From the NCBI RefSeq assembly GCF_003812745.1, contig NZ_CP033831.1, positions 1,860,001 to 1,924,000 of the forward strand: 64,000 nucleotides of DNA, in the 5' to 3' direction. A program made the translations under genes and the position numbers. A model generated the notes under the pieces. That model did no database searches. It was not told where the DNA came from and saw only the letters and a program-made list of their open reading frames with translations. The DNA comes from Serratia sp. FDAARGOS_506. GTDB taxonomy: Bacteria > Pseudomonadota > Gammaproteobacteria > Enterobacterales > Enterobacteriaceae. Shown piece after piece: positions 46,632-50,422 of the stretch (its first letter is position 1; every line of letters starts with the position of its first letter).

Positions 46632-46895
46632 TTATTTATAAATCTCGGCGGTGGCGTGGTAGTTGCCTTCATTACGCGCTTCGATCACGCGGTAGGCGGT
46701 CGCGCCTTTAGCGTCGGCTTTCTCCGACAGCGCCTGGCGAATGTCGGTCGGTGCGCCGTCGATACCGCTGACGGTAATGGTGCCGATAGATTGCAGGCTA
46801 GCGGTCTGATCGTTAGTCACCAGCTGGGCGGCAGAAGCGCCGAAGGAGATGACAGACAGCAGGCCGAGTGCAGCGAGAGTAGTTTTCATGTTCAT
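46632..46895 (-). CDS. DUF1471 periplasmic protein, YhcN-like, copy 1
   Basis: An 87-residue secreted protein. The signal peptide MNMKTTLAALGLLSVISFGASA is followed by a DUF1471 domain with IGTITVSGIDGAPTDIRQAL, KGATAYRVIEARN and HATAEIYK. AAGGA lies 8 nt before the ATG. It is about 70% identical to the next gene on the left-running strand, so the two form a tandem duplication. E. coli YhcN responds to acid and peroxide stress. This copy is the more diverged of the two from E. coli YhcN. Confidence 0.88.
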   Translation of the reverse strand: MNMKTTLAALGLLSVISFGASAAQLVTNDQTASLQSIGTITVSGIDGAPTDIRQALSEKADAKGATAYRVIEARNEGNYHATAEIYK

Positions 46896-47015
46896 GATAG
46901 CGATCCTTGGTCATAACAGCCTGGAAGGGCTTGGCAGCGATTTTTATTCTTGAAGGCCGTTACGACAGCGTTTGATTCCAGAGATGTATTGCCCGTTGCC
47001 GGGTAACGTCGGTAC

Positions 47016-47279
47016 TTATTTGTAGATTTCAGCCGTTGCGTGGAAGTTGCCGTCATTGCGGGCTTCGATCACGCGGTAAGCGGTCGCCCCTTTGGCGTCG
47101 GCTTTATCTGACAGCGCCTGGCGGATGTCGGAAGGTGCAGCGGCAACGCCACTCACGGTAATCACACCGGCCGGCTGCAGTTTTGCGGCCTGAGTTGCGT
47201 CAACAGATTGTGCTGCGAACGCGCCAAATGAAAGCATGGACAGAACGCTCAGGGTTGCAACGGTAGTTTTAATTTTCAT
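47016..47279 (-). CDS. yhcN: DUF1471 periplasmic protein YhcN, copy 2
   Basis: An 87-residue secreted protein whose N-terminus MKIKTTVATLSVLSMLSFGAF matches E. coli YhcN closely. DUF1471 domain with AGVITVSGVAAAPSDIRQAL, KGATAYRVIEARN and HATAEIYK. The start at 47279 is better spaced from GAGG than the adjacent ATG at 47282. It lies beside argR, as in E. coli, so this copy is the positional orthologue. In E. coli YhcN is tied to cytoplasmic acid and hydrogen peroxide stress. Confidence 0.9.
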   Translation of the reverse strand: MKIKTTVATLSVLSMLSFGAFAAQSVDATQAAKLQPAGVITVSGVAAAPSDIRQALSDKADAKGATAYRVIEARNDGNFHATAEIYK

Positions 47280-47682
47280 CATCTCACCTCATCGTATTCT
47301 TTTATCAGTTCCAACGAACTGTGACTTAGTTCACGGAAATGAGTATACAGCTAGTAACGCGAAAAATTAATAGTTCGCTAACAGTTTCTAGTGAAACTTT
47401 AACCTCGTGATCCCTATTTTTTATAACTGTAAGGAATAAAAAACGCTTATAAAACGATCTTTTGATGTTAAATTTATGTAATTTCAATGAGGTAAGTGCT
47501 TTTGACCAAAAGTGCGGAAGATCACAGTCGGTACTGCTGGTTACATGTAGATGTCATGGAAATGTGTTGCTGAGGGATAAAAAAGCAGTGTTAAACGCGG
47601 CTGAGGGCAGGAAAGGTTACGTGAGGGTTAAAGCAGCGCTAACAAAATGCGGGCTACAGCCGCACTTTGTTAGCACCAGGTT
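47280..47682. other. Gene-free region between yhcN and argR
   Basis: A 403-bp AT-rich region. The left part should hold the yhcN promoter. The right part holds a large imperfect inverted repeat at 47638-47674. The 9-mer AAAGTGCGG occurs once directly (47514-47522 region) and once in reverse complement inside the repeat. I see no gene I can support. Confidence 0.6.
47638..47674. repeat. 37-bp inverted repeat next to argR end
   Basis: GCTAACAAA pairs with TTTGTTAGC and TGCGG with CCGCA, with one A/C mismatch and loop GCTACAG. It lies 8 bp past the argR stop. No T run follows on the minus strand, so if it terminates argR it does so without the classic tail. Confidence 0.7.
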
Positions 47683-49623: not shown

Positions 49624-49884
49624 TCACGATTTGATGCGAGCCTTGCGATCCAGCAGGCAATCATTGTGCGGATCGTAATAACGGCTTGGCCAGATCTCCG
49701 AAGGGTGGATGCCTATCGCTTCGGCGATCAGCCATTCCCCTTTTGGCCACGGGCGCGACAGCGCGTTGGCCAGCGTTGATGAGCTTAATCCGGCCTTGCG
49801 CGACACTGCCGCCAGCGTGGTGCCCTGCTTGCGTAGCGCCGCGATGATATCCGCCGGATGCCAATCTGGGTTCCTTGAATTCAT
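49624..49884 (-). CDS. sfsB: Ner-like DNA-binding regulator SfsB (Nlp)
   Basis: An 86-residue helix-turn-helix protein of the Ner family. It reads MNSRNPDWHPADIIAALRK, then TTLAAVSRKAGLSSSTLANAL and RPWPKGEWLIAEAIG...PSEIWPSRY. The family is named for phage Mu Ner, which represses early transcription. E. coli SfsB (Nlp) affects maltose gene expression. The start at 49884 follows AAGGA by 8 nt. It lies head-to-head with a Mu-repressor-like gene across 172 bp of repeats. Its partner ispB is also its E. coli neighbour. Confidence 0.92.
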   Translation of the reverse strand: MNSRNPDWHPADIIAALRKQGTTLAAVSRKAGLSSSTLANALSRPWPKGEWLIAEAIGIHPSEIWPSRYYDPHNDCLLDRKARIKS

Positions 49885-50056
49885 GTTTACATTCCTTTTC
49901 TGATTAGCCAAAGTTGCGTTAGTGGTATAACTAACGGGTCAAGGTTAGGCGTTTGAACAACATGAAACGCTTATTCGGAAATCAGAATACCATTAAATTT
50001 CTTAAAAAATACCCAAGTAATTTCTAAAAAATGACATTGCCCACTATTGCCCAGAG
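49885..50056. promoter_or_regulatory. Repeat-rich divergent control region sfsB / Mu-repressor-like gene
   Basis: 172 bp with four repeat sets: inverted repeat CGTTAGT-N6-ACTAACG (49917-49936); inverted repeat GCGTTT-N10-AAACGC (49949-49970); direct repeats AATTTCTTAAAAAAT and AATTTCTAAAAAAT (49996-50010 and 50019-50032); and ATTGCCCA twice, 10 bp apart (50036-50043 and 50046-50053). The last pair abuts the downstream start codon. The layout suggests operators for both proteins. Promoter elements are not clear, though TATAAC/GTTATA lies inside the first repeat. Confidence 0.65.
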
Positions 50057-50422
50057 ATGATGGCTATGAAAAACGAGTGGTTTGCCGCCAAGGAGCTGAC
50101 AGGCATCGCAGGATTACCTTCCTCACCACAGGGAATCAATCTGATGGCCCGGCGCGAAGGCTGGATCAGCCGCAGGCGTAAAGGCGTGCAGGGAAAAGCG
50201 TTGGAGTACCATATCGACAGCCTGCCTTCAGATGCGCGTAACCTGCTGGTGCTGAAGGAAGACGGGGCGACATATGACGTAGAGCGGCAGGATCCGTTGG
50301 CGGTCTGGATCGAGTATTACTACCATTTGACGGAGAGCGAGCGCGCGAAAATGCTGGCTTTCCTGATGCGGGAAGGGATCGGTGGCCTGCTGGCGCGCAT
50401 CGACGAAGAGAGCAATACGTAG
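50057..50422 (+). CDS. Mu repressor / MuA N-terminal-like DNA-binding protein
   Basis: A 121-residue protein. Residues about 5-70 (WFAAKELTGIAGLPSSPQGI, then ARREGWISRRRKGVQGKALE and YHIDSLP) match the winged-helix domain shared by phage Mu repressor c and the transposase MuA N-terminus, as I remember both. The C-terminal part, LTESERAKMLAFLMREGIGGLLA, recalls the oligomerization segment of c rather than MuA. No transposase catalytic domain follows. Starts at 50057, 50060 or 50066 are possible. Divergent from Ner-like sfsB. Its role is unknown; a regulator of itself and sfsB is my inference. Confidence 0.8.
   Translation: MMAMKNEWFAAKELTGIAGLPSSPQGINLMARREGWISRRRKGVQGKALEYHIDSLPSDARNLLVLKEDGATYDVERQDPLAVWIEYYYHLTESERAKMLAFLMREGIGGLLARIDEESNT

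Follow-up and report, generated by a model that had tools for sequence, protein, structure and literature searches.

In phage Mu (AF083977), the c and ner genes diverge from a spacer of 169 bp. It carries a pair of TTAG-N8-CTAA sites whose centres lie 42.5 and 68.5 bp from the start of ner. The early promoter features annotated around these sites in the Mu record form part of the Ner binding region, and we take the sites to be those that were found protected by Ner in older work. Relatives of both Mu proteins are encoded by host chromosomes. SfsB (Nlp) of Escherichia coli has been discussed, on its own, as a recruited Ner (PMC8987985), E. coli YfeC is a characterised regulator, reported to bind inverted repeats rich in TTC and to act mostly as a repressor (PMC8464067), and EnrR of Edwardsiella has been reported to be a host H-NS counter-silencer (PMC10899749). 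While SfsB as a recruited Ner and YfeC as a regulator are thus already known, the retention of a partner gene together with a Mu-type operator geometry, as described here, appears to be undescribed; a literature search of limited coverage returned no account of a divergent pair with this geometry, and an earlier description is possible.

Within a window of 64,000 nucleotides from Serratia sp. FDAARGOS_506 (contig NZ_CP033831.1), the locus lies between mdh and ispB, as it does in several other genera. The closest named matches to its sfsB come from S. ureilytica and S. nevei. On the minus strand, sfsB (49624-49884, ATG at 49884) encodes a Ner-family HTH_35 protein of 86 amino acids; on the plus strand, an ORF of 121 amino acids (50057-50422, conserved start probably at 50060 or 50066) encodes a protein resembling the Mu c repressor. 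The regulatory region between the sfsB start codon and the repressor-like gene is 172 bp long. SfsB contains the Pfam HTH_35 domain (5.5e-37) and matches the structure of phage Mu Ner (1neq, 3.4e-20). It scores 126 bits against the SfsB equivalog NF007670 of NCBIfam, below the curated cut-off of 150 bits, and the name sfsB is used here on grounds of synteny and family only (the gene adjoins ispB, as does E. coli sfsB). The repressor-like protein has YfeC-like and HTH_Tnp_Mu_1 (PF02316) domains that score above their Pfam cut-offs (54.2 versus 23.3 and 37 versus 22.9 bits), and PHROG 7148 (transcriptional repressor) covers its residues 1-118. A profile search of the PDB matched it to the DNA-binding domains of the Mu c repressor (1g4d) and of MuA (1tns), and it shares 34% identity with D108 c across 95% of the query. 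Elsewhere in the window, a tandem paralogous gene pair (46632-47282, minus strand) encodes small secreted-looking proteins of 87 and 88 amino acids that by eye are YhcN/BhsA-like.

An initial annotation of the spacer described four repeat sets and read them as separate operators for two proteins. All four are present at the positions reported: an inverted repeat with 7-bp arms (IR1, CGTTAGT/ACTAACG, 49917-49923 and 49930-49936), one with 6-bp arms (IR2, GCGTTT/AAACGC, 49949-49954 and 49965-49970), a 13-mer direct repeat with a spacing of 23 bp (DR1, AATTTCTTAAAAA/AATTTCTAAAAAA, 49996-50008 and 50019-50031), and two copies of ATTGCCCA starting at 50036 and 50046, a spacing of 10 bp (DR2). When the AT-rich spacer was subjected to dinucleotide shuffling, an exact inverted repeat with 7-bp arms arose in 28% of shuffles, which means that neither palindrome stands out by itself; 8% of shuffles contained a direct repeat of 8 bp within 40 bp, which makes the DR2 pair borderline. 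The DR1 13-mer pair occurred in none of 500 shuffles and is the sole repeat set clearly beyond chance. Conservation was assessed in 28 aligned Serratia spacers. IR1 is the most conserved stretch: 16 of its 18 columns do not vary, and its arms are perfect in 25 of the 28. At least two copies of DR1 are found in 26. The arms of IR2 are perfect in just 6 of these spacers; TTGCCCA is duplicated in 10, and 3 of the 18 columns of the DR2 pair (50036-50053) are invariant. Related genomes that have the two genes side by side conserve neither IR2 nor the ATTGCCCA pair, and by the annotation's own refutation criterion the operator reading fails for both. IR2 (49949-49970) is unsupported as an element, its left half merely overlapping a second Ner-type site. 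The proposal of separate operators for two proteins agrees in outline with the comparisons: IR1 behaves like a Ner-type operator of SfsB, and DR1 tracks the presence of the repressor-like gene next to sfsB. Three further features had escaped the initial annotation: the second Ner-type site (49944-49961), a minus-strand TTARTGGTAT that is conserved (49987-49996), and a copy of IR1 at a paralogous gene. It had also drawn no link between the locus and the c/ner region of phage Mu.

The suggestion that the first palindrome encloses a -10 element also held: TATAAC (49926-49931) lies within IR1, is conserved, and forms part of an extended -10 on the plus strand. Together with a weak -35 (TTAGCC, 49904-49909) at a distance of 16 bp, this extended -10, TGGTATAAC, constitutes a putative promoter of the repressor-like gene (49904-49931) that Serratia spacers retain, as does the paralogous gene. 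A putative leftward promoter of sfsB (49984-49996, minus strand) has the extended -10 TTAATGGTATTCT at 49984-49992, which is conserved in Serratia spacers linked to sfsB and missing in all 17 paralogous copies without sfsB; sfsB promoter activity at this position is a prediction. The two putative promoters face one another, about 60 bp apart. Both are weak by consensus, neither being listed by a strict sigma-70 consensus scan of the spacer, and their assignment is based on conservation and extended -10 sequence.

The paralogous gene is a second repressor-like gene that Serratia genomes carry elsewhere, with no adjacent sfsB. One example (G000:C2:227507-227967, L073) is 69% identical and lies in another neighbourhood behind the same upstream operator block. 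All of the 17 copies examined have the first palindrome (or a close variant of it), the second site 26 bp away and a promoter-like block, but the leftward TTARTGGTAT and the DR1 pair are absent (0-1 box). This pattern implies that the first palindrome serves the promoter of the repressor-like gene, and that TTARTGGTAT and DR1 go with expression of sfsB.

DR1 (49996-50031) consists of two TTTCYtAAA boxes over the putative sfsB promoter, where it overlaps the expected -35 region, a sensible placement for repression. At least two TTTCY(N0-2)AA boxes were found at 50 of 53 Enterobacterales loci with a repressor-like gene, versus 1 of 27 without; the pattern was picked after inspection of the sequences and the loci without the gene are more GC-rich, for which reasons these counts are supportive but short of conclusive. 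The boxes conserved in this way are well placed but not recognisable as the operator sequence of Mu c. That E. coli YfeC, from the same family as the repressor-like protein, is reported to bind TTC-rich repeats speaks for an operator role of the boxes. DR1 is the best candidate for a site of the repressor-like protein, and we rate the chance that this protein reads it as about even. A possible, though less probable, explanation is that DR1 is an A/T-rich upstream element of the promoter, or a site for a bending or silencing protein of the IHF or H-NS type, as would suit an AT-rich sequence upstream of the putative sfsB -10. Against this, the order of letters within the word matters, since loci have a mean of 2.3 boxes (mostly on one strand) versus 0.2 in shuffles and 0-0.5 for permuted words of the same letters, and DR1 vanishes together with the repressor-like gene.

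The core of IR1, here termed O1 (49918-49935, GTTAGTGGTATAACTAAC), is a TTAG-N8-CTAA palindrome whose centre lies 42.5 bp ahead of the start codon of sfsB. A weaker Ner-type site, O2 (49944-49961, TTAGGCGTTTGAACAA), is centred at -68.5, 26 bp from O1. These are the offsets of the two sites of Mu from ner. The Serratia sequence at 42.5 bp, TTAGTGGTATAACTAA, is identical to the Mu site at 12 of 16 positions in the same reading direction; the second site, perfect in Mu, is degenerate in Serratia. Mismatches to TTAG-N8-CTAA number 0 at -42.5 and 2 at -68.5 (shuffling P = 0.00025 and 0.007, respectively), O2 having 2-3 mismatches overall, and in one genome (G033) no second Ner-type site was found. 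At the G033 locus (L090), sfsB is flanked by two repressor-like genes, the second of which has its own promoter-proximal palindrome, TTTAATGTTATACATTAAA. Within the genome from which the window was taken, GTTAG-N8-CTAAC occurs once, at O1, and the sole other conserved near-copy of O1 assigned to the same family lies at the paralogous gene.

A survey of 80 named Enterobacterales loci, in which a divergent repressor-like gene was scored within 400 bp, found that 43 of the 48 loci with such a gene have a site at -39.5 to -45.5, as against 3 of the remaining 32 (Fisher 2e-13, a value that overstates independence because the loci are related by descent). The three exceptions are Providencia loci in which the repressor-like gene is further away. 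The distance between sfsB and the repressor-like genes is about 490-560 bp in four Providencia loci (L209, L216, L245, L246) and one of Moellerella (L228), as compared with about 185 bp usually. In Providencia rettgeri and strain B14, the TTAG and CTAA arms are kept while the -10 is destroyed (TACATC, GACAGC); persistence of the arms without the -10 core argues for an operator, beyond a mere promoter. In the f27 lineage, the gene pair is retained and the site at -42.5 is absent. Loci of this lineage (L050, L051, L055-L057, L132-L135, L137, L139, L140; genomes of 2.2-2.9 Mb) have TTTCY boxes beside the divergent pair, and in several of them a TTACT/AGTAA palindrome is found near -60 instead, which may be a Ner site that has diverged. 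One locus titled Serratia marcescens (L201, 1001295B_180824_A7) has an sfsB of just 78% identity and another operator variant; the title may be wrong.

The site also accompanies a particular recognition helix. TLANAL is found in SfsB, in Mu Ner and in the SfsB-like Ners of Shewanella phage MuM16-2 and Vibrio phages ZX4290 and 1.028. Each of these three phages has the site at -42.5 and a 2-mismatch site at -68.5. The site is absent from phages with TLKNAL, TVKNAL or TVRNAL Ners (D108, PhiR68_1, SuMu and Mannheimia phage 3927AP2); in these Ners, Lys or Arg occupies the position of the Ala in TLANAL. The TLANAL helix is also that of E. coli SfsB, yet no such site was found at its own gene. The repressors of MuM16-2, ZX4290 and 1.028 are annotated as Cro/CI, HTH or S24-peptidase types. 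Given the Mu geometry, the phages with unrelated repressors, and the covariation with the Ner helix, O1 is most likely a Ner-type operator for SfsB that covers the repressor-like gene's extended -10, and that SfsB reads it we consider highly probable. The gene identities, the operator geometry, its conservation, and its covariation with gene content and recognition helix can all be read directly from the sequences.

It is unlikely that O1 is instead an autoregulatory operator of the repressor-like protein, SfsB binding elsewhere in the spacer or nowhere. O1 does overlie the promoter of the repressor-like gene, it is lost where sfsB stands alone, and its presence at the paralogue, where there is no sfsB, would be explained just as well if the repressor-like protein read it. 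The recurrence at the paralogue was the origin of our first reading, in which O1 was the repressor-like protein's own site; this was dropped because phages with unrelated repressors have that very site, equally far from ner. The covariation of O1 with the Ner helix likewise speaks against autoregulation. The inverted arms of O1, 6 nt apart, approach the layout reported for YfeC, but YfeC arms are TTC-rich, unlike the GTTAG of O1 (PMC8464067).

The next recurring near-match to O1, TAAGTGGTATAACAAA (L033:1501-1516, G000:C2:887436), is present in most Serratia genomes. It is located between genes for an MFS transporter and a GntR-type regulator that look like exuT and exuR, and is probably the GntR-type regulator's own site. 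GntR regulators of the ExuR/PdhR kind have sites that contain TGGTATAAC-like cores. That O1 is itself such a site, or only a conserved extended -10, for which TGGTATAAC is a good match, with the palindrome incidental, is very improbable, since its conserved part is the outer TTAG/CTAA arms, which persist where the core is destroyed, and since TGGTATAAC is absent from the phage Mu and Vibrio sites.

With O1 most likely assigned to SfsB and DR1 a candidate for its partner, the spacer is probably the control region of a domesticated, host-borne c/ner switch of the phage Mu type, for which mutual repression would be expected. We infer binding, repression, promoter activity and mutual repression from sequence comparison, as follows. 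Bound to O1 and O2, SfsB would keep RNA polymerase from the extended -10 of the repressor-like gene, in the way that Ner acts on Mu c. The repressor-like protein would most likely bind DR1 and block the opposed sfsB promoter. The outcome would be mutual repression, on the same principle as the decision switch of Mu but in a host, with SfsB expected to act in trans also on the paralogous repressor-like gene that carries the same operator.

With phage Mu, the Serratia locus shares divergent c-type and Ner genes, and paired sites 26 bp apart at a fixed distance from the start of the ner-type gene. The Mu repressor is longer than the Serratia protein. Unlike in Mu, there is no transposase A downstream of the ner-type gene and no other phage gene, and the locus therefore resembles a Mu control region rather than a prophage. 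Both Serratia genes are under purifying selection of the kind seen in host genes, again unlike Mu (median dN/dS of 0.095 for the repressor-like gene and 0.063 for sfsB). Edwardsiella EnrR is a Ner-family relative, its structure (7f9h) matching SfsB at 4e-20; unlike Serratia SfsB, it is not described as half of a repressor/Ner pair (PMC10899749).

In E. coli, SfsB belongs to the same family and occupies the same place next to ispB, but unlike in Serratia its locus is without a repressor-like partner and without both operator sets. YfeC and YfeD belong to the same family as the Serratia repressor-like protein; their genes lie in tandem beside gltX, with no adjacent sfsB and no O1-type site identified. 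Many genera other than Serratia have two repressor-like genes at the sfsB locus, Yersinia has mostly one, and none is present there in Pantoea, Erwinia, Tatumella or E. coli. Tentatively, and with somewhat less than even confidence, we propose that a full phage switch, with repressor, anti-repressor, both operator sets and the original geometry, was captured before the diversification of the Enterobacterales and kept as a bistable host circuit, and that lineages such as E. coli, Pantoea and Erwinia have since been left with an orphan SfsB, the repressor half having disappeared along with both operator sets. If true, an old phage decision switch has been turned into a host circuit whose bistability is open to direct test. 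SfsB and YfeC are poorly understood regulators in well-studied bacteria, and the comparison provides SfsB with a predicted operator, its likeliest first target genes, and a predicted partner. It also suggests that E. coli SfsB and YfeC are separated remnants of a single phage switch, the operator geometry of which has been retained from phage Mu to the host chromosomes of many genera.
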